Of a DNA stretch of 41,877 nt, positions 9,563-32,730 are shown piece by piece. The stretch is from Bacilli bacterium (GTDB taxonomy: Bacteria > Bacillota_I > Bacilli_A > RFN20 > CAG-826), in the NCBI GenBank assembly GCA_017447305.1, contig JAFSNY010000003.1:1-41877 (forward strand), given 5' to 3'. The notes beneath the pieces were generated by a model that saw nothing but the letters and a program-made list of their open reading frames with translations, was not told where the DNA came from and did not search any database. How positions within the stretch are numbered: position 1 is the first letter of the stretch; every line of letters begins with the position of its first letter. The translations under genes and the position numbers were made by a program.

Positions 9563-9594
9563 AAAAAAGTGGATATGTTTTTCTATCCACTTTT
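9563..9594 (-). terminator. Rho-independent terminator of the riboswitch operon
   Basis: Arms AAAAGTGGATA and TATCCACTTTT (9584-9594 and 9565-9575, read on the minus strand), an 8-nt loop and a run of T. It lies 18 bp after the stop of the last operon gene (9612). Confidence 0.85.
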
Positions 9595-9611
9595 ATTCAT
9601 AATTCTAGTTA

Positions 9612-12600
9612 TTATTTGGTGTTGTTGTTATCTCTTAAGACATCGATGAAGGTGCTGCGATCAAGTGGTTTATAGAAATGGAATCCTTGTAAGCCACAGT
9701 TCTTATCCAAGTCTCTTAAGATGATGTATTGGTTAGAGTTTTCAACACCGACGAACGTGACCTTCATTTCGCTCTTCTTAGCGACCTCTAAGATGGAGGT
9801 AATTTCATTAAGGTGCTGTTTGTTAACTTCGACGTCACCAACGTATTTACGAGGAATTTTAATCTCTTCAAATCCAAGATTCTTTAAAACTTCTATGGAT
9901 AATGAACTACCAGTGTATTGGTCACAGATCAAGGCGACGTGGTTAGAGATTAATCTTCTGGAAATCGCTTCAAATCTATCTCTATTGTTCATTACTTCGG
10001 TCTCAGTAATTTCAAATCCTAAGAATCCACGTGGGAAGTGATAGTCAGTGAGAAGTTCATAAATGTTATCAAAGAAGTTTGGATCTGAAAAGTAAGAGAA
10101 GTCAGTGTTAATCGTTAATCTGGTAAATCCGAAGATTTTAAAGATGGTTAAACCATATTGTTGATAGAGTTCACCAATATATTTAATCAAAGCGTTAGAA
10201 ATAAGGGAGATCTTGCCGTTTTTCGCTGCAACCCTAACTAATTCTTCAGTATTGAAGACTTGAGCGCGATATTCGTCGCTTAAACGGATAAATAATTCAG
10301 CACCATAGATTGCGCCATTAGAGGCTCTAACAATTGGCTGGAGAACGACTTGGAAGGTATTCGCACCAAATTGTTCATCGATAACAGCGAGCATGAATTC
10401 GTTACGAGATGCACTTCTGGAGTAATCTCCATCTGGGAAGAAGATGAAGTTTTTATTAATTTCGTAAGTGCGGTTAATGTAATAACGATAAACGTATTTA
10501 AGGAAGTCTTCAGCTTCTGGGTATGCTTGTGGGTAGTTAAATGGGAGATATGTGACATCAAAGCTGCAATGATATTCATCGAATGAATATGTTTTCTTTG
10601 ATAATTCATAAATCTGCTCACATAAGTTAACGACGTCGATTTGGCCACATTCATTAAGTAAAATCGCGATGCTTTGTTGGTCGTGATAGAAGATGTTCGC
10701 GCTGTATTTAGTGATCATCTTAATTTCATGAATGAATTGTCTAAGGATATATAAATATCCTTCTGAACCGACATCTTTTGTTAATTGATCTAAGTTATCG
10801 ATACGTAAGAGGAGTAAATATCCACGACCATGGATAGAGTATGCGGATCTTAACGCGATAGCGAGAGACGGATATGAGTTTATTAATAAATCCATATCGA
10901 AACGATCGGATGATGTAGATGTAGAAGCAATCTTATGGACGACCATTCTCTTGAGTTTAACTAAACGTTCATTAAGCGATAATGAAACTTCATAACGATT
11001 CTTTTCTAAATCGATGATCATCTTTCTTGAGGTCTTAAGTGGACACTGTGGACATGGTGAATCAAGTCCATATAAAGCTTTATAACATGATTCTCCAACT
11101 TTGACTTTAGGGAATAAGACTGGGAAGTGTTCAGAATAAGAAACAATCTTATATGTTGAAGGATCAATACGATATAAAGCGTAATCGGAAAGCATTAACA
11201 AGGCGTTCACTTCACGATAAGCATCGTTATAGTTATCTTCATTTTGACTCATTAATAAATAATCACTAATGCGGTAAGCAAAGATGAATAATGATTCACG
11301 GATATAGGAATCTAAAACCATCTCTTTATCACGGTTAAAGAAGAAGACAACCGCTCTTGGAACGCCTCTATCAATCAAAACATAATAGAATCCACTACTA
11401 ATTCCATAACGATCAAGCATTCTAATTAAATTGATGGTTGCATGTGAACGATTAGAGAAATAGAAGGAATAATCTGGATCTTTATTCTCATCACAAATCT
11501 TTAAGAAATCAGGATCGACATTCCCGTGTAAATTAAAGACATGGTTATCATTTGTGAAAGTATGGACGATAACGCTTGCTTTAGATGTATTGGAATCAAA
11601 ATAGATAATGCCTACTTCATCAATACTTAAATATGTTGCCGCTGTGGCCATATTTCTTTCGATAATCTTTAAAGAATTTTCTCTTTCTTTTGAAGAAACA
11701 CGGAGTTCTGATAAGGAGTTCAAAATCTTCGTCATGTAATTAAGATTGATGTTATTTTGTGTTAATTCACCACGAGAAACAGAAGTGATACGGTCTGGTA
11801 AATAGAAGTTGATTGGTAAACCTTGACGCTTCGCATATCTTAAATCAGAGAAGATTTCAGAAATGTTAGAGTGAGGATAACAGACTAATGAGAATCTTGC
11901 TGGAATTGTCTTTAATCCATCATATGCTTTCTTAGAAACAGAGATGCTCTTCATCATGCTCTCGCAAATCTCTCTAATTCTCGCAAAAGAGTTCATATGA
12001 GGGATGAAAACGTAATAACCACTATTATCATCATTTGAGGAAATTAAGAAGTATGGGAAGGCCTTAAAGGCATCTTTAATAAAACTAACTAAACGGATAT
12101 TCTCTTCGTTGGTTAAGGAGTCATTATCAAAATCATACGAGATTTCCATGACGACATTGCGGTAGTTTTGTGAGCAATAAATTAATAATGGAAGGTTTTT
12201 AACAAATGATTCAAGGGTAACGATATGTTCATCGTCGTAGACATGCTCTAATGGAATGTCGGCTTTGGATAAATCATAAGAAATCATCAAAGCGTTTTTA
12301 AGAGAGGTATTTGTCACTTCAATATCTTCATTTAAGACATCAAATTCTTTGACACCTAATCCTTCAGGATATCTAGCTTCGGTAATCTTTCCGTTTCTAA
12401 TATCCCCTAATGCTTCTCTAGTTACGGAATAAAGACCATCGACAAAGATGGATTTTAACGCTTTAATCGAAAAGATAGTAGCTAAGGCATATAAACCACT
12501 TAAAACGACGACCAAAGCGATAAGAACAATTAATAAAGCAATATGTCCTTGGCTGATATATAAAGCGGAAAGAATAATCGTTCCAACAATCATGAAAACA

Positions 12601-12671
12601 AGGATAGCGGCTGGTCCAACAAAGATTAAATTAAGCGAACGTAATATTGTTAATGGTTTTTTCTCTTTCAT
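9612..12671 (-). CDS. Large membrane EAL-domain protein with degenerate catalytic site (probable c-di-GMP sensor)
   Basis: Start at 12671 rather than 12725: AGGAG (12680-12684) sits 8 nt upstream and the longer form would overlap the previous gene (1019 residues). Two membrane segments (about 12-70); a degenerate GGDEF-like region (about 160-295); a GAF-like region (about 330-475); a PAS-like segment with a CPQCP motif (540-544); a second GGDEF-like region without GGDEF (about 600-740); and a C-terminal EAL domain (about 775-1005). Compared with active EAL phosphodiesterases it keeps the first Glu (E792 in AELFIR), Asn (N855), EITE (E887), Lys (K938) and Gln (Q995). The DDFG motif reads DQYTG (second Asp is Q918), and the Glu of the AEGVE motif is Val (V974). 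It should bind rather than hydrolyse c-di-GMP. Last gene of the operon. Confidence 0.88.
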   Translation of the reverse strand: MKEKKPLTILRSLNLIFVGPAAILVFMIVGTIILSALYISQGHIALLIVLIALVVVLSGLYALATIFSIKALKSIFVDGLYSVTREALGDIRNGKITEARYPEGLGVKEFDVLNEDIEVTNTSLKNALMISYDLSKADIPLEHVYDDEHIVTLESFVKNLPLLIYCSQNYRNVVMEISYDFDNDSLTNEENIRLVSFIKDAFKAFPYFLISSNDDNSGYYVFIPHMNSFARIREICESMMKSISVSKKAYDGLKTIPARFSLVCYPHSNISEIFSDLRYAKRQGLPINFYLPDRITSVSRGELTQNNINLNYMTKILNSLSELRVSSKERENSLKIIERNMATAATYLSIDEVGIIYFDSNTSKASVIVHTFTNDNHVFNLHGNVDPDFLKICDENKDPDYSFYFSNRSHATINLIRMLDRYGISSGFYYVLIDRGVPRAVVFFFNRDKEMVLDSYIRESLFIFAYRISDYLLMSQNEDNYNDAYREVNALLMLSDYALYRIDPSTYKIVSYSEHFPVLFPKVKVGESCYKALYGLDSPCPQCPLKTSRKMIIDLEKNRYEVSLSLNERLVKLKRMVVHKIASTSTSSDRFDMDLLINSYPSLAIALRSAYSIHGRGYLLLLRIDNLDQLTKDVGSEGYLYILRQFIHEIKMITKYSANIFYHDQQSIAILLNECGQIDVVNLCEQIYELSKKTYSFDEYHCSFDVTYLPFNYPQAYPEAEDFLKYVYRYYINRTYEINKNFIFFPDGDYSRSASRNEFMLAVIDEQFGANTFQVVLQPIVRASNGAIYGAELFIRLSDEYRAQVFNTEELVRVAAKNGKISLISNALIKYIGELYQQYGLTIFKIFGFTRLTINTDFSYFSDPNFFDNIYELLTDYHFPRGFLGFEITETEVMNNRDRFEAISRRLISNHVALICDQYTGSSLSIEVLKNLGFEEIKIPRKYVGDVEVNKQHLNEITSILEVAKKSEMKVTFVGVENSNQYIILRDLDKNCGLQGFHFYKPLDRSTFIDVLRDNNNTK

Positions 12672-12675
12672 ATCA

Positions 12676-13410
12676 TTAACTCCTAATAATTTCATTACGT
12701 CCAATTTCACCAATCGTGGTGACAATGGCTTTTCCGACGTCGGCGTATTTTTTCAAAACATTGATGTAATTATCAACATTAGTTTTTTCTCCGACTTTCT
12801 TTAAGACAACTTTAACCGCGATATATGGGACTTTAGCGATGTGACAAGCGATACAAACGCCGCCTGAAGTACAGTCAAAGACGACATTTGATTTATGCCC
12901 TAAGATAAACCCATCGGAATATGCATGTTCAATTTTTTCGACACTATCGTAGATGACGTTAGCGGAAATATATGTTGCAGTTTGGAAATTACTAAAGCTA
13001 CGTTTTTCAAGTGAGGTTAAGATGACATCACTAATATCTTCTTGAGTGTAGAAAGAACGAGGGAAGTGAGGAAGTTGTCCTAAACGAACATTAGCTTCTA
13101 ACACTTGATCAACGTCGCCGATAATCACTCTCTTACTAACCGCGATTTCTCCCGCTTTAAAGTCTGTATTATAAGTGACGCATTTACCCACGACAAAGAC
13201 TAAGATAACAAAGTATTTGCTAATGATGTAATTAGTCACTAAAGCGGACATATACGAGGTATAAATATCATAAGCAAGGATGACTTGCTGATTAAAGATT
13301 TTGCCAATTTCAATTTTATACATATCGAAAATGGTTTCTTCATGACGTTCGGTCATGACACTTTCGAAATATAAAATATCGTCGTGAGTGCTACCAAGGA
13401 TAAGTATCAT
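12676..13410 (-). CDS. MTA/SAH-nucleosidase (PNP_UDP)-fold protein, active site apparently degenerate
   Basis: A 244-residue protein whose beginning (MILILGSTHDD) and C-terminal part (GGVCIACHIAKVPYIAVKVV) resemble the nucleoside phosphorylase/Pfs fold, where the equivalent stretch reads like MEgaAiA..c...vPf..ir. Active MTA/SAH nucleosidases use a Glu in that motif and a later Asp in an SD-x-A motif. Here the region reads FDCTSGG and then VLKKVG, so both seem lost. It starts with TAATG overlap on the upstream EAL gene and ends 4 bp before the next EAL gene, so it is fixed inside a c-di-GMP cassette. It may bind a nucleotide or nucleoside without hydrolysing it. Family call moderate; function unknown. 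Confidence 0.7.
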   Translation of the reverse strand: MILILGSTHDDILYFESVMTERHEETIFDMYKIEIGKIFNQQVILAYDIYTSYMSALVTNYIISKYFVILVFVVGKCVTYNTDFKAGEIAVSKRVIIGDVDQVLEANVRLGQLPHFPRSFYTQEDISDVILTSLEKRSFSNFQTATYISANVIYDSVEKIEHAYSDGFILGHKSNVVFDCTSGGVCIACHIAKVPYIAVKVVLKKVGEKTNVDNYINVLKKYADVGKAIVTTIGEIGRNEIIRS

Positions 13411-14954
13411 TAATTAGATGCCTCCTTCTTCTCAAATGGGTTAGATAACAAGAATTTTTCATATTCTTTAATTGGCAAAGCCTTTGAATAATAGAATCCT
13501 TGAATCGTATTACATTTCATTTTCTTTAAAATCTCACATTGTTCTTTATTATCGACACCTTCAGCGATAACTTCCATGTCGTTAGCTTGACAAAGTTCGA
13601 TTAAGAATTTAACAATCGCTCTCGATTTCGCGTCAGTGACAATATCATCAATAAATGATTTATCAATCTTAACCGCATCGAATGGAATTTTACGTAAGTT
13701 ACCAATGTTAGAGAAACCAACACCAAAGTCATCCATTAATACACGGATTCCGCGGTCTCTTAACTTTTTAATAATGGAGACTGACATGAAGGTATTGGTT
13801 TGAGATGTCGCTTCGGTAATTTCAATTTCGATTAATGATGGGGAAATCTTATATTCTTCAAGAAGTTCCAAAATGGAATTTAAGAAGTTTGTGGAGAAGA
13901 ATTCATACAAAGAGAAGTTAACGGAAACAGGGATTAATCTTCTTCCACGTCTCTTCGCTTCATTTAAATCTTCGCACACTCTCTTAAAGACGAACGTATC
14001 GATTTCATGGATTAAACCAGCTTGTTCCGCAATCGGAATGAATTTTGCTGGGGAAAGTAAGCCGTATCTTTTTGAATCCCAACGAACTAAAGCTTCACTA
14101 GAAACGAATTTTCTTGTCGCTAAGTTAAACTTAGGTTGATAGAAAACGACGAACTCGTTATTAGATAAAGCATTGGAAATCTCTTCAACTTCACTTCTAG
14201 AAGAACGCTTTCTAAATGATTCGTGATAATAAGTTAATGATTCGAAGTTACGTTCACTGACGTTTCTTGCAATAGAAGCATTCTCAACAGTTTCAACAAC
14301 GGAAGCACCTTTTTCAAGAGGAGCGACACCAAAGAATGGACTAACGGAAACAGATGTTGTTCCGGTTTGTTCGGTTTTAAATAACTCATCGGAAATATTA
14401 TTAACGACATCGCGGATTTCACGGTCCTCATCCACCATTAAGTAGATTAAGAAGACACCGTGGTTAAAACAGAATGCGTTGGTTCTTCTTCCGATTTTCT
14501 TTTCTGGAGTTAATACTTTCTCAACGATTTCTGCGGTTTTTCCGTTGAACGCAGCGTAGTTTTCATCACGGTCGAGGTTTTGTGCAGCAATAAGTGTTGA
14601 GCAAGTAAAAGCAATAATATATTGTCCAGCCTTTGATTTAGCTCTTCTACTTTTCGACAAAGTAGTAACTTTCACATCAAAAGCGTGTAAATCATAGAAA
14701 GCAATAGCTTCACCTAAGTTATAGACGTTTTCATTAATAAGTTGTCTATTCGCTCTTTCTAAGGAGAGAAAACGAATTAACAAGGCAATAGCCATAATAG
14801 CGAATACAGGGGCGAAAACAATTAATAAAACTGTTAAAACAGGAATCTTTTGTGCGATTCCAGTCAAAGCGAAAACAAGCTCGAGAGCAAGAATAATCAC
14901 AAAGAGTGATCCTGAGATTATGGTAGCGAGTAAATTACGTTTACGATAATTCAT
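13410..14954 (-). CDS. Membrane-bound EAL c-di-GMP phosphodiesterase, catalytic residues intact
   Basis: This 514-residue protein has two N-terminal membrane segments (about 8-30 and 38-61), a degenerate GGDEF-like domain (about 90-245, no GGDEF motif) and an EAL domain (about 255-505). All key residues of active EAL enzymes are visible: E287 in SEALVRW, N346 in SVNFS, E378 in EITE, D408-D409 in DDFGVG, K429 in VKID, E465 in IAEGV and Q485 in IQGFYYS. It should hydrolyse c-di-GMP to pGpG. It lies 2 bp after the signal-peptidase gene inside the riboswitch operon. A c-di-GMP-activated operon that encodes its own c-di-GMP hydrolase would limit its own expression. Confidence 0.93.
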   Translation of the reverse strand: MNYRKRNLLATIISGSLFVIILALELVFALTGIAQKIPVLTVLLIVFAPVFAIMAIALLIRFLSLERANRQLINENVYNLGEAIAFYDLHAFDVKVTTLSKSRRAKSKAGQYIIAFTCSTLIAAQNLDRDENYAAFNGKTAEIVEKVLTPEKKIGRRTNAFCFNHGVFLIYLMVDEDREIRDVVNNISDELFKTEQTGTTSVSVSPFFGVAPLEKGASVVETVENASIARNVSERNFESLTYYHESFRKRSSRSEVEEISNALSNNEFVVFYQPKFNLATRKFVSSEALVRWDSKRYGLLSPAKFIPIAEQAGLIHEIDTFVFKRVCEDLNEAKRRGRRLIPVSVNFSLYEFFSTNFLNSILELLEEYKISPSLIEIEITEATSQTNTFMSVSIIKKLRDRGIRVLMDDFGVGFSNIGNLRKIPFDAVKIDKSFIDDIVTDAKSRAIVKFLIELCQANDMEVIAEGVDNKEQCEILKKMKCNTIQGFYYSKALPIKEYEKFLLSNPFEKKEASN

Positions 14955-14956
14955 TG

Positions 14957-15976
14957 TTATTTTCCCTTCTTATTCATAATCTCATCTAACATTTCTCTTT
15001 TCAACCTTTCTTTATCTTCTTTACTTAAAGAATCTAAAGAATCAACGCCTTTCTTTTCACTTGGTTTTCCATCTCCTGCACCTGCAGTTTCTGGTTCTTC
15101 GTCGTCTTTCATGGTTTTAAAGATATCCAAAACACTAGTGACAACAAGATATCCAGCCGGGACTAAAAGGAAGACTAATAAACCCCATGGGGAAGAAAGA
15201 AATCCGAAGAATCCGCCGAGGAATGCACTGTTAAGAATAACAACACCTAGGATGTAATTTTCATTAAATGCTTGGTATTGGCCAACCACGGATTGGTTAC
15301 CTTGTTCATTAATACCAGCAACTACAAATACATAACGTCCTTTGCCTTCTTCTTTGGTTAAATCAACATGGACTTCTCTAAGTCTATGGGTCATAACTTT
15401 TGTAGTTGGACGATCGACGTTAGTTTGATCATAATATTTTGAATTATGTGGGGCAAAACGACTTTGATAAACATCCATGAAAGAAAGATCAACATAGCCA
15501 TGTTCTTTCGCTGTTAAGTCATCATTTGTCCATAAAGCTTCATAAACAATGATATTACCTTCTTGAGCAACAACATGACTAACGTTTGGTTTGTTAAACA
15601 TTTCAAGAACCTTTGTTCCACTGACTTTATGGGTAATAATCGCAGTCTTAACTTTGTAAGTTGGCTCCATAGAATTAGTTTGGACAACGAAACTACCATA
15701 ACCATATGGAAGGTTTTGGTTGAAGTTTTGTTTCTTATTAATCATTGCATTGATTTGTCCAATGCCTGCGAAGATGAATAAACCAGCAAAAACAATAGTG
15801 AGGACCCATTCAATAATGATTCTGGCCTTACTTTTTGGTTTTTTTTCTCTCTTCTTCTTGCCGTTATTTTCTTCAGTGACTACTTCAGAAGCTTTGACTT
15901 CTTCTTTCACTTCTTCATTAACTGCTACTTCAGAATTAGATGTTTCTTCGACGATGTTTTTTTCTTCTTCCATCAT
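14957..15976 (-). CDS. SipW/Sec11-type signal peptidase I
   Basis: A 339-residue signal peptidase of the Ser-His (archaeal/ER/SipW) class. An acidic then Lys-rich cytoplasmic N-tail (1-50) is followed by a membrane segment (about 52-76). Box B with nucleophile S102 reads TNSMEPTYKV. Box D reads VMTHRLREV with H197 in place of the Lys of typical bacterial LepB. A box-E-like GINEQGN (about 221-227), a second hydrophobic segment (about 247-282) and a charged tail follow. In Bacillus, SipW cleaves TasA/TapA-type proteins with a T-x-A-x-F/W signal motif; three proteins of this operon and a fourth nearby carry AWF/AWY. The start overlaps the previous stop (ATGA-type). The tail LSKEDKERLKREMLDEI resembles the tail of the small membrane protein at 24791-25144. 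Confidence 0.88.
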   Translation of the reverse strand: MMEEEKNIVEETSNSEVAVNEEVKEEVKASEVVTEENNGKKKREKKPKSKARIIIEWVLTIVFAGLFIFAGIGQINAMINKKQNFNQNLPYGYGSFVVQTNSMEPTYKVKTAIITHKVSGTKVLEMFNKPNVSHVVAQEGNIIVYEALWTNDDLTAKEHGYVDLSFMDVYQSRFAPHNSKYYDQTNVDRPTTKVMTHRLREVHVDLTKEEGKGRYVFVVAGINEQGNQSVVGQYQAFNENYILGVVILNSAFLGGFFGFLSSPWGLLVFLLVPAGYLVVTSVLDIFKTMKDDEEPETAGAGDGKPSEKKGVDSLDSLSKEDKERLKREMLDEIMNKKGK

Positions 15977-18444
15977 AGTCTAACTACCTTTCCACCTAAT
16001 TCTCTCTTAATCTCAAACGCTTCATCAAAATCCGTAAAGACATATGCGTCTTCTTTGTTTTCTGAGAATTTATCTTTTCCACAGTAATATCCATCAGGTG
16101 TTAAAACGATGAACTTACTGACATCAATTTCTCTAGTTTCACCTTCAAATAAACTATCAACATATTTGATGATGTCTTCATCATCTTGGAGTTTACTTTC
16201 TTTTGTGTCACTAGAAAAGATTGAGGATATATCTTCATCATCACTAATAATGGAAATATCCGCGAAATCATAGTGTTTTCTTTCTTTTTTACGATCCAAA
16301 GTGATGGCTTCAACTTCTTTATCATCGTTATTTTTATCGAATAATTGATCGATATATTTAACGACCTCTGGGTTATCTTTATTCTTTCTTGCTTTCTTTG
16401 CAATCGAGAAGATGGATGCGATATCACTATCACTGATAGGGGCGATATCACCTTCCACTAATTGACGTTTTCTCTTTTCTGGAATGGAAATAGGAGCGAT
16501 ATTTTCATCACCGGAGTTTTCAAATGAACTATCGATATCTTTAACGACATCTGGATTATCACGACGTTTAACGTTTCTACCTTTCTTAGTGAGAATTGCG
16601 GAAACATCATCTTCTTCTTTGATTGGTTTGATATCGCCTTCAACGAGTTTGCGGACTTTCTTTGGCTCAAGATAAATAGATGAAGGCTCTTCTTCGTTTT
16701 CAAGGTCTTTAAAGACTTTATCGATATATCTTTCGACTTCTGGGTTATCTTTTTGTCTAAATTTACGACCTTTTCTAAGGGCGATCTCTTCTGCGCCTTC
16801 AATTTCTTCTACTGGTTCGACATCTTCAACATATTTTCTCGTAAGTGGAGAAACAACTGTGTCATCATTTAAGCCAAGTTTATCAAATAAGGAGTCGATA
16901 TATTTAACGACTTCAGGATTTTCACTTCTTTGTTCGCCTTCATTTCCTTCAGCAAAAATCGATTCGACATCTTCAGATTGCTCTCTTGGTTCAATGTCAT
17001 GGTAATCTCTTTCAACCGCGGCTTCTTCTCTGTTAGCATCTCTTGCTTCAGTTGCTTCAGCTTCTTCTGGTTGATTTTCTTCTCTAGGAAGCTCTTCTCC
17101 TCTTGCTTGAGCGATGATTTGTCTTCTAATTTCATCAAGACGTCTCTCTTCTTCTCTACGCGCAGCTTCGGCTTCTCTTTGACGACGAAGTTCTTCTTCT
17201 TTCTCTCTTTGAGCGATAATCTTTTGAACTTTCTTTTCGTATTCGAAAGCTTCTTTATTCTTTCTCTTCTTGAGTTTTTCGAGTTGATTCTTGTCTTCTT
17301 TGTTTTCTTTCTTCGCGGCGAGTTCTTCTTTATAGTATTCTCTTTCAACTTTAGTTGGGTGAGCAGGAAGATCCTTCTTAAGTTTAGAATCTAGATATGC
17401 TTGATATGGATCATCCACTCTGACGAAACTAAATGGACCTTTTAATAAATCGTCATAGATAAATTGCTCATCATCTAATGAGGTGAGAATCTTTGGTTTA
17501 TAGGTCTTGCTTAATGATTTAACTCTAATAGAATGGTCTTTATCTCTAAGAGCGAGGTAATTGGTGAACGCGACGGTGTTTAATTCATCAATTTCTTCAT
17601 CGGAAAAGAGTGAGACATTCTCATTAACTCGATAATCAACACCTAATTGTTGGTATTTTTCGATAAAGCGATAAAGTTCATAACATCTATGGTATTTCGG
17701 GTTCTTTCTTAAGATGTTGGTCATGATGATAGGATTTCTAACATCACGGTCCACCTTCATCTTTTTCATGAACTGTGAACTATAGTAATAAAGGACGTAT
17801 TGTCTAATATCTTCAATACGGGAAATGAATTTACTAGAAGCAATGCTGACGGAGTCTCCACTTTTACCGCGGACCTTAATTTTTGTTTCAATTTCCACTT
17901 CCGCGCCATTGATGACAGAGTTGTTTTTAAAATATAAAATCTGCTCATCTTGAAGTGGAGCGAAGGTTTTAATAAATTCATATCTCTTTTCGATAAATAA
18001 GACTAATCGACGGATAAGGGTGGCAATAAATCTATTTTCGTAAGTATGGATATCTTCTTCGTTAGCGATATTGATAATCTTATTTGGAATAACATCACCG
18101 TTTTCATCAACAGTCTTAATGTATTGGGTGTGGCTAGCAAGGTGAATAACGCTCTCAGAGCTGATTTTTCTTGCAAGTTCAACTGGGACTAAAACCGCTT
18201 CTGTTTTCGTGACTTCACGAGGGTTTTTGACGATATCTCCTAAATCAAATAAGACATCTTCAATCGCATCAATCCATGTTAAATCAAAGGAGGACGTCGC
18301 TAAACGATCAATCCTCATATAAGCATTTTTGCCTTTGACTAATTCATTATAAAGAAGCGGAGCGTCGCCCTCTTTTTTAAGAGCGTCCATCTTCGCTAAA
18401 TATTTATCAAATAATTTGCTTATCTTTGATTTCTTTGGTGGCAT
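15973..18444 (-). CDS. DUF2357-like protein with coiled coil and five C-terminal repeats, partner of the AAA+ ATPase
   Basis: An 823-residue cytoplasmic protein. The N-terminal ~365 residues, with the element EDIHTYENRFIATLIRR (about 130-146), resemble DUF2357 proteins that pair with McrB-type ATPases (including the N-terminal part of McrC). I see no PD-(D/E)xK nuclease motif. Residues about 365-450 are a long charged helix or coiled coil (RREEERRLDEIRRQ and similar). From 509 to 766 there are five copies of a ~61-residue unit centred on NPEVVKYIDSLF, and a short domain (773-823) closes the protein. The start has AGGA a few bases upstream; the gene follows the ATPase after 11 bp and overlaps the peptidase gene by 4 nt. 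The DUF2357 call is moderate, the CDS call high. Confidence 0.85.
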   Translation of the reverse strand: MPPKKSKISKLFDKYLAKMDALKKEGDAPLLYNELVKGKNAYMRIDRLATSSFDLTWIDAIEDVLFDLGDIVKNPREVTKTEAVLVPVELARKISSESVIHLASHTQYIKTVDENGDVIPNKIINIANEEDIHTYENRFIATLIRRLVLFIEKRYEFIKTFAPLQDEQILYFKNNSVINGAEVEIETKIKVRGKSGDSVSIASSKFISRIEDIRQYVLYYYSSQFMKKMKVDRDVRNPIIMTNILRKNPKYHRCYELYRFIEKYQQLGVDYRVNENVSLFSDEEIDELNTVAFTNYLALRDKDHSIRVKSLSKTYKPKILTSLDDEQFIYDDLLKGPFSFVRVDDPYQAYLDSKLKKDLPAHPTKVEREYYKEELAAKKENKEDKNQLEKLKKRKNKEAFEYEKKVQKIIAQREKEEELRRQREAEAARREEERRLDEIRRQIIAQARGEELPREENQPEEAEATEARDANREEAAVERDYHDIEPREQSEDVESIFAEGNEGEQRSENPEVVKYIDSLFDKLGLNDDTVVSPLTRKYVEDVEPVEEIEGAEEIALRKGRKFRQKDNPEVERYIDKVFKDLENEEEPSSIYLEPKKVRKLVEGDIKPIKEEDDVSAILTKKGRNVKRRDNPDVVKDIDSSFENSGDENIAPISIPEKRKRQLVEGDIAPISDSDIASIFSIAKKARKNKDNPEVVKYIDQLFDKNNDDKEVEAITLDRKKERKHYDFADISIISDDEDISSIFSSDTKESKLQDDEDIIKYVDSLFEGETREIDVSKFIVLTPDGYYCGKDKFSENKEDAYVFTDFDEAFEIKRELGGKVVRL
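16147..16920 (-). repeat. Five ~61-residue repeats (NPEVVKYIDSLF type)
   Basis: Within the DUF2357-like protein the core recurs at residues 509 (NPEVVKYIDSLF), 567 (NPEVERYIDKVF), 630 (NPDVVKDIDSSF), 691 (NPEVVKYIDQLF) and 755 (DEDIIKYVDSLF), 58-64 residues apart. Between cores lie a VEGDI-x-PI-like strand and a D-x-x-SIF motif (DVESIF, DVSAIL, DIASIF, DISSIF), which together make up the unit. The copies have diverged in DNA, so they are old and kept by selection. Confidence 0.85.
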
Positions 18445-18455
18445 AAAGATCCTAA

Positions 18456-19982
18456 CTAGTTATTCTTAATTAAGTTTTCGATATAAGCGTGAGCTAATGG
18501 GAAATTGCCCTTTCCATATAATTTATCGAGTTGCGCATCGAGTTCCTTAAGTTCATCTTTTAAGAATGCGATATTTAAAGATTCAAATTTCTTTAAAATC
18601 TTATTGGTGAAGATGAAGTCAAAGGCATCTGATTCTTTTCCACCACAAGCAATGTATGTTGGAATGAATTTATCGAGTTGCATTAAGATACGGTTGCCAA
18701 AGGTAAGTTTGAATTTCTTAATGATGAAGTTATCGAGTGTTTCGAATTTTTCAAGCATTGATTCAGAAATTGGGTATTGATTAACCGCTTCATTGAATAA
18801 TCTTTCAAGTTGAGAATATGGAATACTCATAGATTCTTGATATTCCGCTTCAAATGGACGACCTTTATCATCGAAGAATAATGAAATAGCACGGTCATAA
18901 ACCTTATCAGAAATAGTGAAGGTGCTATCATCGTTGTTCGCTGTTCCGAAGAATAAGACATTTTGTGGAATTAATAATTTACCACCATCTTTAAAGTTCT
19001 TTGGATCGCCTGGCATTGGCGCAGGAACAAGGTCGATTAGCCAGTCCGCAGTCTCTTTCTTTTCCATGATGGATAAAAATTCAGCAAAGTAGTATTCAAT
19101 ACGGGCTAAGTTCATTTCATCGAGAATGATGATGTTTAAGTCTTTACGATATGTCGCAACGTATAAGGAACGAAGGAATTCGGTTTCATTAAATTTCTTG
19201 GTGAATTCGTTATAGTATCCGATAAGTTCACTTCTATCTTTCCAAGAAGGTTGAACTGGGATTAAGGATGATGGGAAGTTAAAGAATTTACCTAAAACGT
19301 TAGCAAGAGAAGTTTTACCTGTACCAGAGATACCTTCTAAGATGATGAGCTTAGAAGTAGCAATACCTGCGATTAATTGTCTAATCGTATTAATGGTGTA
19401 ATAAAGTTTCCATTGGCTCGCTGCGTAGTTTCTAATCGCATTACATAATTCTTCAAGTGATAATCCTTCACGATCAGGAATATTTGGATCAGAATCACGA
19501 TATTTATTATCAACACGGACGAGTTTTGGGAAACGAGAAGAAACTTCACTAATAGTTTCTTGTTCTTCTTCTGTAGCTTGACCAGCGTCAGCTTTAAGAC
19601 CCATGTATCCGACTTTGAGGTTCAAAATCTTATCTTTTTCTTGAACGGCTTGATAAAGTTCATAATTAAGTCTTTCAACTTGTCTTGCTAATTCATCTTT
19701 ATCGAGTTCTTTTCTCACGAAACGGATATAGCGACGGAGAAAGATGAAAAGAAGGAATCCTAGACCGGCGATAAGACCAATACCAAGGATAAGGAATAAG
19801 ACCCAGAAGAACCAACCAAAGAAACCAAATTCACCGCTGTGAGCGGAAAGGAGGGAGTTATAACGGCCAAAATTTGCACCGACATCAGTCCATGGTGAAA
19901 TTAAGCCTTTGTAAAAGAAAGTGCCTAAGTGGCGGAAGAATTCAGTGAGGAATTCTCTTAAATATTCAAAGTATGCTTGCAT
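18456..19982 (-). CDS. Membrane-anchored McrB-like AAA+ ATPase
   Basis: A 508-residue protein. The N-terminus has an amphipathic segment and a strong hydrophobic helix region (about 52-82), then a coiled coil (about 90-125) and an AAA+ module of the McrB/MoxR clade. Walker A is GISGTGKTS (217-225), followed by the McrB-typical SWKDRSELIGYYN (246-258), Walker B LDEMNLAR (D288, E289), sensor 1 GTANNDD (346-352) and an arginine-finger-like DRA (R364). Classical McrB is soluble and carries a DNA-binding domain; neither holds here. The start has GGGAG at a good distance. It is sandwiched between exported-protein genes and a DUF2357-like partner. I infer a membrane-located remodelling ATPase that assists export or assembly of the operon's surface proteins. 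Confidence 0.9.
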   Translation of the reverse strand: MQAYFEYLREFLTEFFRHLGTFFYKGLISPWTDVGANFGRYNSLLSAHSGEFGFFGWFFWVLFLILGIGLIAGLGFLLFIFLRRYIRFVRKELDKDELARQVERLNYELYQAVQEKDKILNLKVGYMGLKADAGQATEEEQETISEVSSRFPKLVRVDNKYRDSDPNIPDREGLSLEELCNAIRNYAASQWKLYYTINTIRQLIAGIATSKLIILEGISGTGKTSLANVLGKFFNFPSSLIPVQPSWKDRSELIGYYNEFTKKFNETEFLRSLYVATYRKDLNIIILDEMNLARIEYYFAEFLSIMEKKETADWLIDLVPAPMPGDPKNFKDGGKLLIPQNVLFFGTANNDDSTFTISDKVYDRAISLFFDDKGRPFEAEYQESMSIPYSQLERLFNEAVNQYPISESMLEKFETLDNFIIKKFKLTFGNRILMQLDKFIPTYIACGGKESDAFDFIFTNKILKKFESLNIAFLKDELKELDAQLDKLYGKGNFPLAHAYIENLIKNN

Positions 19983-19985
19983 ATA

Positions 19986-21047
19986 TTACATCTCCCTTAA
20001 AATTTTGAATTGGATCTGAGCAGCGAAGTTACCACCCATGGTTTGGTTGATACAGTCGAGGTCCCAGCCTTCTAAATAGACTGAGAAGATTAATTCTTTT
20101 GGAACGGTATGATATAGATTAATCACCATTGGATTTTCTTCTATATCGACCGATTCGATATCCTCTAGTGAGAGCGAATCTTCTTCTTTAAATGATAGCC
20201 CTCTGGATAATGATTCTTCTTTCAAGAAACGCTTTGTGTCTTTTTTATGATTAGCATTAAAAACACTATAATTTCCATGAGCGAGGATATCTTCATCTCC
20301 AACATCCTCATATACAGCGAGGTCACGGTTAATTACTTCTCCGTATAACACCTCTCTATATTCCCCATGAGTGTCTTCAAAGACATCAAAGTATTTGTCT
20401 TTATCATTATCGAGAACGCCACCTAAATAAGTTACTTCTTCTTTAGTGGGGTCAATGATGTAGTATTTTCTTTCACTGACATCATAGATGGAAAATCTTA
20501 ACGAATTGGTAAGATTGTTTAATCCAGCAAGCACTTCATCATAGTTAGCTTTTGGATTCTTTTTGACATATTTGCTCGCTGTAACTTTATTTGCTTCAAC
20601 ATTGCTTTCAAAATATGTCGTAAATGGATCAACACTGATATAAGCATCATCATCACACATCAAATAGATTGATTGTTGGAAGAATCCGGTTTCAATTCTT
20701 GATGGATCATATGGAATACCGCTACTTGGGAAGAAACTTGAATCCACATATTCATAGAATGATGGAATTGGGTTTTCTTCGTCTTTCCATTTGTAGTCAA
20801 ACATTGAACTAACAGGGGCGAATGGTCCGCAGTCATTTAAATCTTTTTCGGTGATTTCACTCTTAAATGAATCCAAATCATCAGATGTGGAAATCACTAA
20901 ATTTCTTTCTCCTCTAATGCCGACTTCAAATTGGTCGACATTTAACTGCGTGCCCGCAGCGAACCACGCGATAGAAAAAGAAAGTGAAAGACTGGCCAAT
21001 GAGATTAAGCCAGTGAACGCAGATATAATAACTTTACGAATTTCCAT
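19986..21047 (-). CDS. SipW-type exported surface protein with AWF motif (LEGW family, 353 aa)
   Basis: The N-terminal hydrophobic signal runs to SIAWFAAGT (about residue 25-33), the T/S-x-AWF pattern of SipW-dependent proteins. The mature part is acidic, and residues near the middle (LDNDKDKYFDVFED) align with the EF-hand-like loop of the 22357-23631 protein but lack its Gly. The C-terminus has VYLEGWDLD (LEGW 325-328) followed by a final beta-strand AAQIQFKIL. No LPXTG or other sortase signal is seen. The start lies 5 bp after the preceding stop without a clear Shine-Dalgarno site, so translation is probably coupled. The next gene is the ATPase, 3 bp on. Probable minor subunit of a surface structure; function inferred. 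Confidence 0.85.
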   Translation of the reverse strand: MEIRKVIISAFTGLISLASLSLSFSIAWFAAGTQLNVDQFEVGIRGERNLVISTSDDLDSFKSEITEKDLNDCGPFAPVSSMFDYKWKDEENPIPSFYEYVDSSFFPSSGIPYDPSRIETGFFQQSIYLMCDDDAYISVDPFTTYFESNVEANKVTASKYVKKNPKANYDEVLAGLNNLTNSLRFSIYDVSERKYYIIDPTKEEVTYLGGVLDNDKDKYFDVFEDTHGEYREVLYGEVINRDLAVYEDVGDEDILAHGNYSVFNANHKKDTKRFLKEESLSRGLSFKEEDSLSLEDIESVDIEENPMVINLYHTVPKELIFSVYLEGWDLDCINQTMGGNFAAQIQFKILREM

Positions 21048-21052
21048 TTTTG

Positions 21053-22237
21053 TTAGTTTCTATTAATCTGGAACTTAAGATTAAGATTGAAAGCGTGGTC
21101 GATTTCTTCATCGATAACCACGTGATCCCATCCTTCAAGCCAGATGGTTAAATCCAAGTAAGCATTGCGCTTACTATTATCTTCGTCTGTTGCAGTTACG
21201 CAAGCTGGAATTCCTCCGGATAGACTTCCTCTATCATCGATAGGATAGATGTCATTAACACCTTTATATTCCGCGTATCTTGGTCTAATTCCGGCAATAA
21301 AATCGGAATAAGAATAGTCATAAACATCCATATTCTTCTCGTGCTTGGCATAGAATGTTGTAGCTTCGGAAGAAGTATTACCTGTGCCATTAATATCTTC
21401 AAAGTCTGAATCACTTACGATATGAGTGGTCACTAATGAGCCATCATAATCACCATAAACGATTTCTTCACCGTGATCAGTGTCATAATAATCATCGTCA
21501 CCAGAAAGGTTTAATAAACCAGCAACTGCGGTTCTACCATCAGTGGTCTTATTTGGATTGAGAATATATCTCTTTCCACTTGAAGCAGATCCATCGATAA
21601 AGACTCTTAAAGCTTCAACGATATTTCCTGCACCACTAGCTTTAGAGGAAACACCAGAAATCCAGATACTTTGGCCTTGCTTATAAATGCTAGAACCACC
21701 ACTATCTAAGATTCTGAATGCTAATTTGATTTTGGTGTATTGAGTGTGTTCTGCTGTGTGTGTATTAAGAACATAGGTATGAGAAGGAGCTTTGTAAAGA
21801 GTAAGATCGTTTCCTACGTTCTCATCAGCGATATTGGTTGTATAGTATCTAGAAGTAACTGGTTCTAGTCTATCAATCGCATATCCTGTTTGAGCAAGAT
21901 AGGCTTTAACTGCGCTAGCTCTAATTCCGGTTCCTGGATCGGTGAAGTAAATATGCTTTCCATCAACATATTCGTATGTAAGACCATAGTTGATCTCCAT
22001 TTCGTGATGGTTATCAGCTGTTTCTTCAGCGGTCGCTCCAGCCCAATAGTCTCTTTCGCAAACTAATCCAGCTTGGATAAGTTCACCTTCGCTAACGGAA
22101 GCACCGGAGTAAGTCGCAGTGGCTCTTGTAGAATAAGCAAACCACGCAACTGTGCCTGAGACTGTGCCTGCAAACGCGGACACAACTACAATCGCGAGCG
22201 CGCTAATAAAAAATTTGAAACCTTTTGATCCGCTCAT
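21053..22237 (-). CDS. SipW-type exported surface protein with AWF motif (LEGW family, 394 aa)
   Basis: A short basic N-terminus and a hydrophobic core lead to GTVSGTVAWFAYSTR (about residues 24-38). The motif AYSTR-x-T-x-x-YSGAS is almost identical to the 22357-23631 protein (YSTRSTVSYSGAS), so the two are clear paralogues. The mature region carries ALRVFIDGS (ALRVSFDGT in the paralogue) and an acidic loop (SGDDDYYDTDHGEE) at the position of the EF-hand-like loop. The C-terminal motif is IWLEGWDH (LEGW 367-370), then strand LNLKFQINRN. The start has AAAGGAG 6-7 nt upstream. A strong intercistronic hairpin (22281-22320) precedes the gene, so its level may differ from that of the upstream subunit. 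Confidence 0.88.
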   Translation of the reverse strand: MSGSKGFKFFISALAIVVVSAFAGTVSGTVAWFAYSTRATATYSGASVSEGELIQAGLVCERDYWAGATAEETADNHHEMEINYGLTYEYVDGKHIYFTDPGTGIRASAVKAYLAQTGYAIDRLEPVTSRYYTTNIADENVGNDLTLYKAPSHTYVLNTHTAEHTQYTKIKLAFRILDSGGSSIYKQGQSIWISGVSSKASGAGNIVEALRVFIDGSASSGKRYILNPNKTTDGRTAVAGLLNLSGDDDYYDTDHGEEIVYGDYDGSLVTTHIVSDSDFEDINGTGNTSSEATTFYAKHEKNMDVYDYSYSDFIAGIRPRYAEYKGVNDIYPIDDRGSLSGGIPACVTATDEDNSKRNAYLDLTIWLEGWDHVVIDEEIDHAFNLNLKFQINRN

Positions 22238-22280
22238 CCTACACTCCTTTCTTATTTATTAATAATGTTTAGATTTGCGC

Positions 22281-22320
22281 CGGCAAAGCCGCACACACGT
22301 ATATGTGTGCGACCTTACCG
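22281..22320 (-). promoter_or_regulatory. 17-bp intercistronic RNA hairpin
   Basis: On the minus strand the arms are 22320-22304 and 22297-22281 with a 6-nt loop. All 17 positions pair if three G-U pairs are allowed; on the plus strand those same positions would be C-A mismatches, so the structure is built for the minus-strand transcript. No U-run follows, so it is unlikely to be a terminator. A processing site or 3'-end stabiliser between the two paralogous subunit genes fits better. Confidence 0.7.
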
Positions 22321-22356
22321 ATAAATTGTCGTTATCTATTTTTTTGTTTGTTTGAA

Positions 22357-23631
22357 TTAATTATGTTCAACGTGTGCGTCGCAGGAGAATCTCATATTGA
22401 CTCTGAAAGCAGAACCAACATAGTCTTCATCACTCCAAAGAGCGCTTGGTGTTCCACCTAATTCTTGCCAACCTTCGAGGTAAATACGAACGGTGAGGCC
22501 AACTGGGGTGCCATCAGCAGCAGTTGTGAAGAGTTCAGTACCAGAAATGGCATATGGATCGCTGTCATCAGCTAAGTTAGCTGGATCGAGTTCGGTTGAT
22601 TTTGCAACTTGAGCATCATCACCATAGAGGCAGTAATGAGTTGTTTCAACCCAAGCGGAACCATCCCATTCATAGACTTTTTGATCAGCACTAACACCAA
22701 CCATGTCGCCAGTGGCTTTAACGGTGATTGCATCTCTAGCAGCGGTATCAGCAACGATGCCAAGCATGTTGTATTCGTATGCTTCTTGAACATCGAAGAC
22801 ACCATCATTATTGAGGTCTAATTTACCAAAGACATTAACATCATCACCATGGGTGGAATATGTAATATCATTTGTTCCATCGAAGCTAACACGGAGAGCG
22901 TCAGTAATATCTTCTTTACCAGCAACAACGATGTTGTTCATTTCAAGATCAGATAAGTAGACTTTCTTAGCTAAGAATGTATCGTAGTCGCCAGCAGTTC
23001 TAGAACCATTGACATCAACGACTCTGAATTCAAGATTGAGTTCAGCAAAATCTAAAGCAGATGCTGTACCCCAAACGGTCTTGCTTTCATATTGATAAAT
23101 TGGGCTCTTGTAGAATGTGGATGCAGCAGCGTTAAGAGCTAAAGCACCAGAGGTGACTGGACGTAAGTTGTAGTCAGCTTTGCCACGAACCATAGCGAGG
23201 TAAGATTGAACAGCGGCTAATCTTAAGTCAGAAACCCAATCAGTAGCATCGGCACCGAGGCAAACTAATGGATAGTATTTATCAGCGGCATCAGCGGTGG
23301 CATCACCATCACCAGTTGTGGATAATGTGTAGGCATAGGTACCATCGTTTAATTCGCCAGCACCAGAAGCATCGGTAGCACGGGTGTAATATTTAACACC
23401 ATTTTCGAAGACTGCGCCATTAGCAACGGCTGGTCCAGCTTCGGCAGCGATAGCGCCTAATCTAATTTGTAAGTTTTCTGTACAGTGTGCGGAAGCACCA
23501 GAGTATGAAACTGTTGATCTAGTTGAGTATTGATACCATGCAACAGTTCCAGAGATTGAACCCGCGAGGGCAGCGCCCATGGCGAGAGCCATTGTAGAAA
23601 CGGCTATTTTCTTTAAATTTCTAATTTTCAT
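22357..23631 (-). CDS. SipW-type exported surface protein with EF-hand-like loop (LEGW family, 424 aa), probable major subunit
   Basis: The signal reads up to GSISGTVAWYQYSTR (about residues 24-38). The mature protein is Ala/Asp-rich with few Lys. Residues 272-283 (DLNNDGVFDVQE) match a canonical 12-position calcium-binding EF-hand loop (D1, N3, D5, G6, D9, E12), which suggests Ca-dependent folding or polymerisation. The C-terminal motif is IYLEGWQE (LEGW 385-388), then strand FRVNMRFSC. The start (23631) overlaps the upstream gene by 11 nt with GGAG about 15 nt away; coupled initiation is likely. It is the longest family member here. A stable hairpin follows the gene, as is often seen after strongly expressed cistrons; the major-subunit label is inference. 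Confidence 0.87.
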   Translation of the reverse strand: MKIRNLKKIAVSTMALAMGAALAGSISGTVAWYQYSTRSTVSYSGASAHCTENLQIRLGAIAAEAGPAVANGAVFENGVKYYTRATDASGAGELNDGTYAYTLSTTGDGDATADAADKYYPLVCLGADATDWVSDLRLAAVQSYLAMVRGKADYNLRPVTSGALALNAAASTFYKSPIYQYESKTVWGTASALDFAELNLEFRVVDVNGSRTAGDYDTFLAKKVYLSDLEMNNIVVAGKEDITDALRVSFDGTNDITYSTHGDDVNVFGKLDLNNDGVFDVQEAYEYNMLGIVADTAARDAITVKATGDMVGVSADQKVYEWDGSAWVETTHYCLYGDDAQVAKSTELDPANLADDSDPYAISGTELFTTAADGTPVGLTVRIYLEGWQELGGTPSALWSDEDYVGSAFRVNMRFSCDAHVEHN

Positions 23632-24463
23632 ATGCAGTTATTTCAACTCCTAATTTAATTGATGCACCGATAGGTGCGAGATGTTGTGCACTTGATTGTG
23701 GATCATATCCTTCTAACCAAGTGACGATTGTATACCTTCTAAATTGTCCCTTATCTAACGTTTTGCCGGTGTATTTAACAGCGGTCGAATTATCGTAGAA
23801 GTTTTTTGCGAGTGGATATTCATCGGTTTCCACCATCGTGGCGGAATTTGGTCTTTGGCTAATGAATTCTTGGTTTGTTACTTCTCCAGTCTTAGTAACA
23901 TGGACTGTATCTTCATCGCTACCTTTTGGTTTGGCGTACACTTCGTAATTGTGTTCGTCATCTAAATCATTTTCATAAATCATGACTCTTATAAGATCTG
24001 AGATGTAGATATTTCCTGCTCTAGTTGGATCTGCAACTTGGTCATCCGTTAGCTTAACTTTGAGATCATATCCAGCAAATGAAGTTCCAACATTTTTAAC
24101 GAAGAATGTGTACTTGAGGAAGTTATAGGCATCAATGTTTCCTTTCGAATCATAATGCGAAGCTCCATAAGTGTAATCGAGTTCTTCATTATCAGGTTGC
24201 TTTTCGAGTACTCTTGAGAATTGATATTCATCAAACTGTGGTACTGCGCTAAGTCTTAGGAATGACGTTGTATTTGTAAAATCAGATCTTTCGGATAACG
24301 TTAAGGCCACTTCCTGGTTCTTTAACGAAATGGTGAATGTACCTGTGTAACGTCCTAGGAATGCAACGATGGCTAGGGAGGTTATTCCCATTGCTGATAT
24401 TGCTGCAACTACCGCGGCCGCTCTTCTCCTCGCTTTCTTCTTTACATATACTTTGTCATACAT
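23621..24463 (-). CDS. Exported LEGW-family protein without AWF motif, first gene of the riboswitch operon
   Basis: Start chosen at 24463 (280 residues): GAGGT lies 10 nt upstream, and the frame upstream of it runs through the riboswitch terminator. A strongly basic N-terminus (VYVKKKARRR) precedes one hydrophobic segment (about 15-37). There is no AWF; the same place reads VAFLGRYTGT. The C-terminus keeps the family motif as TWLEGYDPQ (LEGY 250-253) and a last strand IKLGVEIT. It may keep its membrane anchor instead of being cut by the SipW-type peptidase, and so could be the base or anchor of the structure (inference). It is directly behind the c-di-GMP riboswitch and overlaps the next gene by 11 nt. 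Confidence 0.83.
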   Translation of the reverse strand: MYDKVYVKKKARRRAAAVVAAISAMGITSLAIVAFLGRYTGTFTISLKNQEVALTLSERSDFTNTTSFLRLSAVPQFDEYQFSRVLEKQPDNEELDYTYGASHYDSKGNIDAYNFLKYTFFVKNVGTSFAGYDLKVKLTDDQVADPTRAGNIYISDLIRVMIYENDLDDEHNYEVYAKPKGSDEDTVHVTKTGEVTNQEFISQRPNSATMVETDEYPLAKNFYDNSTAVKYTGKTLDKGQFRRYTIVTWLEGYDPQSSAQHLAPIGASIKLGVEITAYEN

Positions 24464-24504
24464 AAGTTTTTTTACCTCGAAGGTATAAATTTGTCCCATG
24501 GAAT

Positions 24505-24569
24505 GAAACAAAAGCCAGTGCCTATCATCCAATACATTGGCGGGATGTTTCATCCCTAAGGCAACTGGC
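24505..24569 (-). terminator. Riboswitch-controlled intrinsic terminator
   Basis: On the minus strand GCCAGTTGCCTTA (24569-24557) can pair with TAGGCACTGGC (24524-24514), followed by TTTTGTTT. Two small hairpins (GGGATG/CATCCC and CCAAT/ATTGG) sit inside the loop. The 5' arm contains the 3' strand of aptamer helix P1 (TTGCC, 24564-24560), so aptamer and terminator exclude each other. Ligand binding should therefore allow read-through (ON switch). Confidence 0.8.
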
Positions 24570-24626
24570 TATCTTTGTAATAAAGACCCTGTAGCTTTGC
24601 GTCGCCACATCGCTGTGGCTTTGCTT
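24560..24626 (-). promoter_or_regulatory. Cyclic di-GMP class I (GEMM-I) riboswitch aptamer
   Basis: The minus strand shows the class I c-di-GMP aptamer layout: P1 5' strand GCAAA; P2 GCCACA-GCGA-TGTGGC with a GNRA loop; the highly conserved junction GACGCAAAGC; P3 with GGGTCTTT and AAAGATAGCC; and the closing P1 strand TTGCC. It starts about 7-10 nt after the predicted transcription start and runs straight into the overlapping terminator. It governs ten genes down to 9612. The alternative ligand cGAMP (GEMM-Ib) differs at one P2/P3 position and is not excluded, but the neighbouring EAL, GGDEF and HD-GYP genes favour c-di-GMP. Confidence 0.92.
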
Positions 24627-24639
24627 TTATCTCGTGCAT

Positions 24640-24668
24640 ATCTTAACATGACTATTTCAATCGTTCAA
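24640..24668 (-). promoter_or_regulatory. Promoter of the riboswitch operon
   Basis: On the minus strand TTGAAC (24663-24668), a 17-bp spacer and TAAGAT (24640-24645). The expected start near 24633 places the aptamer at the very 5' end of the transcript. The rest of the gene-free stretch 24464-24790 holds the aptamer, its terminator and the terminator of the next gene upstream. Confidence 0.72.
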
Positions 24669-24750: not shown

Positions 24751-24792
24751 TGCATAAAAAATAAAAGAAAAGAACGAATTTTTCATCGTTCT
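24751..24792 (-). terminator. Terminator of the small membrane protein gene
   Basis: Minus-strand arms AGAACGA (24792-24786) and TCGTTCT (24777-24771) with an 8-nt loop, then TTTCTTTTATTTTTT. The 5' arm overlaps the stop codon of the gene it ends. Confidence 0.8.
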
Positions 24793-25144
24793 ATTTTTCT
24801 TCATTTTCTTTATTGAGATCGTTGAGGAGTTCTCTTCTTAACGCTTCTTTTTGTTCTTCGGTCAAGTCGTTAACTTGGACAGGTTCTTTCTTAGTGGATT
24901 TTCTAACAAAGACTACAAGACCAATAATATTCGCTGCTAGTAACACAAATAATGGAATGACAAACACCCAAAGGTAGAATGTTGTGTTCTTTTGCAAATA
25001 ACCTATAAATGTTGATGTATCTGGTGGAGTATCTGGGTTTGCCGCTGTCTGAGCTAGCATGATAATACTCACTACAAGATCAAAAACAGTGATGGCAACA
25101 TCTAGCACGATTAGGACGATTAGTAGTGGCTTTTTAAACTTCAT
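24791..25144 (-). CDS. Small two-helix membrane protein with charged tail
   Basis: A 117-residue protein. Hydrophobic segments at about 6-32 and 56-79 flank a short Pro/Thr-rich outside loop (NPDTPPDTSTF). A charged cytoplasmic tail ends LTEEQKEALRRELLNDL. That tail closely resembles the end of the SipW-type peptidase (LSKEDKERLKREMLDEI), with the same spacing of acidic and basic residues. It is a monocistronic unit with its own promoter (25177-25204) and terminator, placed between the riboswitch operon and the fifth surface-protein gene. AAGGA precedes the start by about 10 nt. I recognise no family; the tail suggests a shared partner with the peptidase (inference). Confidence 0.78.
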   Translation of the reverse strand: MKFKKPLLIVLIVLDVAITVFDLVVSIIMLAQTAANPDTPPDTSTFIGYLQKNTTFYLWVFVIPLFVLLAANIIGLVVFVRKSTKKEPVQVNDLTEEQKEALRRELLNDLNKENEEK

Positions 25145-26409: not shown

Positions 26410-26547
26410 ATATTGTTTTAGTCTCCTTAATTCAAACGACAAAATCATTCAACTAATCTTTTTTATTAAATTGAATGGATGATAGATTACGATTTTGCAT
26501 CACATGTCGCCAATCAAGATGGGACTTCCTGATCGCTTTCGCTTTGC
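26410..26547 (-). promoter_or_regulatory. Structured 5' leader of the fifth surface-protein gene
   Basis: Between the predicted start and the ATG the minus-strand RNA can form a 7-bp hairpin AUCAGGA/UCUUGAU (26533-26527 and 26519-26513) and a long AU-rich hairpin CATTCAA/TTGAATG (26477-26471 with 26452-26446), which is extended by CAAAATC/GATTTTG (26497-26491 with 26446-26440) and followed by ATTTTGT. The words GCAAAGC and GGCGAC also occur in the c-di-GMP-I aptamer, but the GACGCAAAGC core is missing, so I do not assign a riboswitch class. Confidence 0.45.
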
Positions 26548-27651: not shown

Positions 27652-27672
27652 GAAAAAAGAGGGCTACCCCTC
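27652..27672 (-). terminator. Terminator of the HD-GYP gene
   Basis: Minus-strand GAGGG-GTAG-CCCTC (27672-27659) followed by TTTTTTCC. The stem overlaps the stop codon at 27664. Confidence 0.8.
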
Positions 27673-31203: not shown

Positions 31204-31205
31204 GA

Positions 31206-32727: not shown

Positions 32728-32730
32728 CTT

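Follow-up and report, generated by a model that had tools for sequence, protein, structure and literature searches.

The region analysed here is a putative export and assembly operon for surface proteins in a Bacilli bacterium, known from a draft genome of 1.59 Mb (GCA_017447305.1; G000 in our set, to which the window, its contig and all own-genome counts refer). The window, i.e. the whole stretch of DNA analysed, is 41,877 nucleotides (nt) long. Ten open reading frames (ORFs) run on its minus strand from 24553 to 9612 in the order S1, S2, S3, S4, A, D, Sp, EAL1, P and EAL2, with gaps of −50 to +11 nt throughout, the sole exception being the 119 nt between S2 and S3. They encode four exported proteins with LEGW or LEGY, a McrB-like NTPase (A), a DUF2357 protein (D), a signal peptidase (Sp) and proteins of the cyclic di-GMP (c-di-GMP) type, and an RF01051 riboswitch lies at their head. 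In their order, close spacing and motifs, the genes agree with the description in an earlier note on this DNA. The operon set reaches upstream beyond 9563-24668, as t and S0 are also members and are seen again at the same position in related loci. The nearest named homologues come from Bacilli metagenome assemblies of ruminant and other gut samples. The features are as follows.

24557-24635, minus strand: c-di-GMP-I riboswitch aptamer (RF01051, E 1.3e-9; model R1, 88.8 bits)
24505-24569, minus strand: predicted expression platform (RNA fold, z −3.5; pairing and T-rich tail recurring in homologous riboswitches)
23621-24463, minus strand: S1 (F1), LEGY exported protein (alignment A7, AF2 model)
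22357-23631, minus strand: S2, AWY...LEGW exported protein, subunit (sequence motifs, alignment)
21053-22237, minus strand: S3, AWF...LEGW exported protein, subunit (alignment, structure model)
19986-21047, minus strand: S4, AWF...LEGW exported protein, the immediate neighbour ahead of A in almost every locus
18456-19982, minus strand: A, McrB-like AAA+ NTPase (AAA_5, profile and hhalign, NxD motif GTANNDD)
15973-18444, minus strand: D, DUF2357 (McrC N-domain-like) protein (PF09823 in homologues)
14957-15976, minus strand: Sp, SipW/Sec11-type (Ser/His) signal peptidase (SEC11A/C match, tail motif)
13410-14954, minus strand: EAL1, membrane protein with intact EAL motifs (PF00563, 239 bits; motif check)
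12676-13410, minus strand: P, phosphorylase/nucleosidase-fold protein (PF01048; alignment A5)
9612-12725, minus strand: EAL2, membrane protein with a degenerate EAL domain (domain match and motif check)
24791-25144, minus strand: t, small two-transmembrane protein with the C-terminal tail, kept before the riboswitch and F1 in related loci
25324-26448, minus strand: S0, AWF...YEGT exported protein related to the F family, upstream of t

The operon is conserved in about 80 loci of Bacilli and Clostridia, most of which keep the order F-t-riboswitch-F1-F(1 to 5)-A-D-Sp-EAL-P-EAL, F being a LEGW/LEGY-type gene; such conservation makes the arrangement more than chance. Linkage was counted only in loci with enough flanking sequence. 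The genome co-occurrence of the ATPase, DUF2357 and LEGW genes, which the earlier note had put forward as a check, is evident from F adjoining A in 72 of 74 loci and D directly following A in 72 of 73. Sp is present in order in 57 of 59 loci, EAL in 48 of 55 and P in 47 of 55. The order is F1-F-(Sp/t)-A-D-Sp in more distant Bacilli and F1-F-A-D-Sp in Clostridia, the core being retained across several Bacilli families and Clostridia. At the cut-off used, A was found in 93 of 146 family genomes and in 79 of the 392 genomes sampled from the phylum, counts that take in paralogous modules.

A belongs to AAA_5, and its profile finds the solved structures of E. coli McrB as the best structural relatives (E 1.4e-6); the two also align over 242 columns (E 3e-9). 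In the alignment A shows the NxD form, with NND where McrB has NTAD, and GTANNDD or GTINNDD is present in all 79 A homologues checked. A single strong transmembrane helix at residues 62-80 is followed by a charged helical stretch, and no FtsB/DivIC Pfam match was shown for the protein. Few proteins of the operon are as well conserved as A (61% mean column identity). DUF2357 (PF09823), the domain through which McrC activates McrB (PMC11090510), was identified in 31 of 43 D homologues.

The D of the window carries a long low-complexity tail with repeated NPEVVKYIDxLF-type motifs, and its earlier description as a repeat protein holds for this protein. It does not hold for the homologues, the tails of which are hypervariable (390 to 2331 amino acids, aa) and mostly without such repeats, and the repeats were rejected as a general feature of D. 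Two homologues of 2331 and 2240 aa have huge tails (L078, 4599-11594; L079, 1567-8289). A C-terminal stretch of about 45 aa (FIVKTxxGYYV...DDFxxA...GGKVVKL; 15973-16110 in the window) is kept on the otherwise unrelated D tails of many homologues.

Sp matches SEC11A/C (E about 1e-12), its Ser102 and His197 are invariant among the aligned homologues, and it is the only SipW/Sec11-type peptidase found in its own genome. Sp, at its cytosolic C terminus (LSKEDKERLKREMLDEI), and t, likewise at its C terminus (LTEEQKEALRRELLNDL), share one 17-residue motif. Among 1008 ORFs, the pattern of this tail motif picks out 43 Sp and 25 t proteins and none other, and the Sp of locus L068 carries five tandem copies of it. 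The shared tail may represent a docking motif for a common partner, for which A/D would be the obvious candidate.

The riboswitch aptamer is complete, RF01051 being matched at all model positions with 60.8 bits against a gathering score of 35 bits, and sits 94 nt ahead of the conserved ATG of S1. This ATG, at 24463, is probably the true start of S1 in place of the called ORF start at 24553, since the extra 30 N-terminal residues translate the riboswitch leader and the MYDxxYVKK start is conserved (alignment A7). A covariance model built from 24 riboswitch copies revealed 54 riboswitches in 81 sources. The riboswitch is located immediately upstream of F1 in 41 of 47 loci, counting those where 250 nt or more of sequence precede F1, and all six F1 genes without it are those of Clostridia. 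In 37 of the 54 riboswitches, GCCAG(Y)UGCC on the 3' side of the aptamer pairs with a downstream complement, which is followed by a T-rich tail. In the window, GCCAGUUGCC from the 3' part of the aptamer pairs with GGCACUGGC, followed by UUUUGUUU, and the hairpin appears in the predicted fold. As the 3' strand is shared by the terminator hairpin and ligand binding, the element is most simply read as an ON switch that works by anti-termination, the terminator being predicted to compete with the aptamer.

The EAL motifs are intact in 55 of 75 members checked of the EAL1 family, and EAL1 is predicted to be a c-di-GMP phosphodiesterase. All three tested motifs are missing in 36 of 42 members of the EAL2 family, and EAL2 is predicted to be a c-di-GMP receptor or inactive partner. 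P belongs to the nucleoside-phosphorylase fold family; its catalytic acid pair, judged against the residues of MTA/SAH nucleosidase, is not conserved among 21 homologues (alignment A5), and P is classed as a pseudoenzyme. Control of the export/assembly operon by c-di-GMP, as proposed earlier, is well supported by the conserved riboswitch, the mostly terminator-like platforms, the intact EAL domain and the conserved linkage of substrate, peptidase and NTPase.

A second riboswitch copy in the same genome (contig C5, 3101-3177) is followed by genes for a 400-aa TFAWF and a 1302-aa SIAWF protein (L181, 3213-8323), possibly a second c-di-GMP-controlled exported set and candidate substrates of Sp. 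In related loci, riboswitch copies are likewise found ahead of further AWF-protein genes. A third c-di-GMP-I riboswitch, on contig C56 (L182, 6161-7782), precedes a membrane GGDEF protein, which may indicate feedback on the messenger itself. The genome contains ten GGDEF and six EAL matches. Near the operon, the window also encodes an HD_5 protein (27664-28965) in which HHERWDGSGYP forms an HD-GYP-like motif and a GGDEF protein (38931-40166).

The claim that the exported proteins are of an AWF/LEGW type was found to be correct for LEGW/LEGY in all four and for the presence of an N-terminal AWF-type motif, the latter being absent from S1. S1 is a single-pass protein with a lysine/arginine-rich N terminus, and is probably the first, membrane-proximal subunit or an anchor. 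The best fold match of its AF2 model (predicted local distance difference test, pLDDT, 86) is 7ueg_A, the archaeal bundling pilus of Pyrobaculum (prob 0.92, E 4.7e-3), which has been called TasA-like (PMC9674648). In the S2/S3-type family, W32, G45, R211 and E368-G-W370 are invariant among 53 aligned sequences. The profile of these subunits gave chance matches only to solved structures, and these were discarded. Its alignment with S1 covers 51 columns only (prob 43%), no more than a hint that S1 and S2-S4 share an ancestor.

S3 was modelled with high confidence (pLDDT 87) as a mostly beta protein, residues 39-48 falling under pLDDT 50. The segment 34-51, which follows AWF, is better conserved than the rest of the protein (2.26 vs 1.92 bits), and its conservation alternates over residues 39-45. 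Conserved and strand-like but left unplaced in the modelled monomer, this segment suggests donor-strand assembly. The class of peptidase to which Sp belongs (SipW) and the gene linkage point to cleavage of the subunits by Sp near AWF.

Two sister types of the module were seen in family genomes. In the first (L116-L118 and L123-L125), runs of 240-290 aa FSAW-type exported proteins are accompanied by Sp, an A of about 610-680 aa and a D with a CxxC pair, an apparent ABC transporter following D. The second (L114, L115, L121 and L122) is arranged as A-D-A, a DUF2357 protein between two NxD NTPases; it lacks Sp, and its exported proteins measure about 700-1100 aa. The ABC-transporter and export readings of both types were made by eye. 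The specificity of A/D for LEGW subunits was rejected, as the sister modules carry other exported cargo, and A/D appears to serve exported cargo in general. Its recurrence beside exported proteins favours a role in export over one in restriction.

These observations are best explained by a c-di-GMP-controlled operon of the CoCoPALM type, an NTPase/signal-peptidase association discussed below, that makes, exports and probably polymerises the subunits of a surface fibre, with A/D as the membrane motor readying the substrates of Sp; we consider this explanation probable, with real room for doubt. High c-di-GMP would stabilise the aptamer and block the terminator, turning the operon ON. S1-S4 would then enter Sec via their N-terminal helices, the AWF-bearing subunits would be cut by Sp near AWF, and the freed N-terminal segment of each would serve as the donor strand for its neighbour, S1 acting as membrane-proximal anchor or initiator. 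A would be a hexameric membrane-anchored AAA+ NTPase, the hydrolysis of which is stimulated by D in the way McrC stimulates McrB. A/D may grip peptidase complexes and preproteins at the cytosolic face, the Sp/t tail being its candidate docking site, and time or power their release into the growing fibre. EAL1 would lower c-di-GMP and thereby provide negative feedback, while EAL2 and the pseudo-nucleosidase P may be non-catalytic sensors. As a broader and more tentative proposition, which may well fail, a McrBC-derived membrane AAA+ motor has been recruited repeatedly, with different cargo, to power export and assembly of Gram-positive surface fibres; coupled to a Sec11-type peptidase by a repeated docking tail and turned ON by c-di-GMP, it would be an assembly pathway of its own, separate from those of sortase, TasA/SipW, type IV pili and chaperone-usher systems.

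Several results weigh against fibre assembly by a McrBC-like motor. The TM-scores of S1 with 7ueg are only 0.25/0.39, and the fold of S3 found no confident match in the PDB by Foldseek (best E 0.07). Since single-sequence hhalign gave no alignment of D with E. coli McrC, the McrC link of D rests on the Pfam DUF2357 match, and a profile search of solved structures with D found no McrC structure. A/D is also present without LEGW proteins in some loci. This is in part the independent occurrence of A/D and AWF proteins that had been named as a refutation; such A/D pairs still lie beside exported proteins. The F proteins could instead be monomeric or array-like surface proteins (adhesins, S-layer-like), with A/D as a membrane quality-control device or unfoldase that clears uncleaved preproteins or times them for Sp. 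The lack of a confident pilin fold in S3 agrees with this, as does the position of A/D modules beside very different exported proteins, some of about 1000 aa, from which A/D need not polymerise anything. We nevertheless regard it as rather unlikely, in view of the several paralogous subunits in fixed order, the conserved alternating flexible segment after AWF and the pilus-like top fold match of S1.

The SipW-type peptidase and the AWF signal motif would equally be expected of a TasA/SipW-type matrix operon of the ordinary kind, with A/D as a signalling or regulatory NTPase dispensable for export, and TasA fibres do assemble by donor-strand exchange from an operon without an NTPase (PMC9674648). 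However, the SipW-cognate signal model TIGR04088 matches one of 36 subunits (E 0.014) and the camelysin/TasA Pfam models do not match the subunit family, a result that also weakens the comparison of the favoured fibre with TasA; A, moreover, is highly conserved and directly linked to the subunits, and the ordinary matrix operon is improbable. Least credible of all, and given very little weight, is a defence system (CoCoNuT/Type IV restriction) lying by chance beside surface genes. A is McrB-like, D carries DUF2357, and an antiphage function has been predicted for the systems of NxD NTPases in the CoCoNuT branch (PMC11090510). Yet no nuclease family (PD-(D/E)xK, HEPN or other), CARF or nucleic-acid specificity domain was detected in D or any other operon protein, A has a transmembrane anchor, F and Sp are linked to it in most loci, and the operon is under a c-di-GMP riboswitch. 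Overall, the observation of the earlier note is confirmed, and its interpretation is partly supported. Homology, conserved linkage, riboswitch, catalytic residues and tail motif are computed results; fibre formation, cleavage at AWF, the motor role of A/D and the feedback by EAL1 are inferences.

Elsewhere in the window, a weakly O-antigen ligase/Wzy_C-like membrane protein is encoded directly downstream of the operon on the same strand (7595-9484). An Rnf/NQR-type electron-transport gene cluster with ApbE occupies 29939-35661, and an IS605 OrfB/TnpB-like protein with a Cas12f1-like TNB domain lies at 277-1428.

The system can no longer be called undescribed, as the association of a McrB-like NTPase, DUF2357 and a signal peptidase has been named CoCoPALM by Bell et al. 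(eLife 2024; PMC11090510), who reported a clade of NxD McrB-like NTPases with an FtsB-like transmembrane/coiled-coil fusion and signal-peptidase linkage. CoCoPALM was given one descriptive paragraph there and the topic deferred, with no cargo analysis or experiment; the main text makes no mention of c-di-GMP, riboswitches or EAL (PMC11090510). A literature search for 'c-di-GMP riboswitch' together with 'SipW', preprints lying outside it, found no paper. What is already known is thus the association itself, its cargo, switch and working being undescribed in the searched literature; new here are the exported subunit families, the riboswitch predicted to be ON, the post-AWF segment, the tail shared by Sp and t, and the sister A/D modules. 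If the proposed explanation is true, uncultured Bacilli of gut and rumen have turned a motor fold of nucleic-acid restriction to protein export or fibre assembly under c-di-GMP control. A function would thereby be given to a large branch of NTPases that has been known only from a census, and these lineages would offer a testable link between c-di-GMP and structures at the cell surface.

Like CoCoPALM, the operon combines an NxD McrB-like NTPase having an N-terminal transmembrane/helical part with a DUF2357 partner and an adjacent signal peptidase. Judged from sequence, it appears to be a c-di-GMP-controlled variant of CoCoPALM that fits every criterion tested apart from the FtsB relation, on which the helix and charged stretch of A give no clear verdict; the published description names no subunit families, shared tail or architectural subtypes. 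With the Bacillus tapA-sipW-tasA operon and the archaeal bundling pili it shares a SipW/Sec11-type peptidase, exported beta-rich subunits, a cleavage-type motif near the N terminus and a flexible N-terminal segment. It differs from the Bacillus operon in the extra AAA+/DUF2357 pair and in a c-di-GMP riboswitch in place of SinR control, and a sequence relation of the S subunits to those of TasA or the archaeal pili is not detectable. As compared to E. coli McrBC, the AAA+ core is homologous to McrB and a DUF2357 partner is present, but the motif is NxD and not NxxD, specificity domain and nuclease are absent, and the NTPase is membrane-anchored and encoded in a surface-protein operon. The riboswitch has the full aptamer of the RF01051 family, and here it controls a putative fibre/export operon that is predicted to be turned ON by anti-termination.

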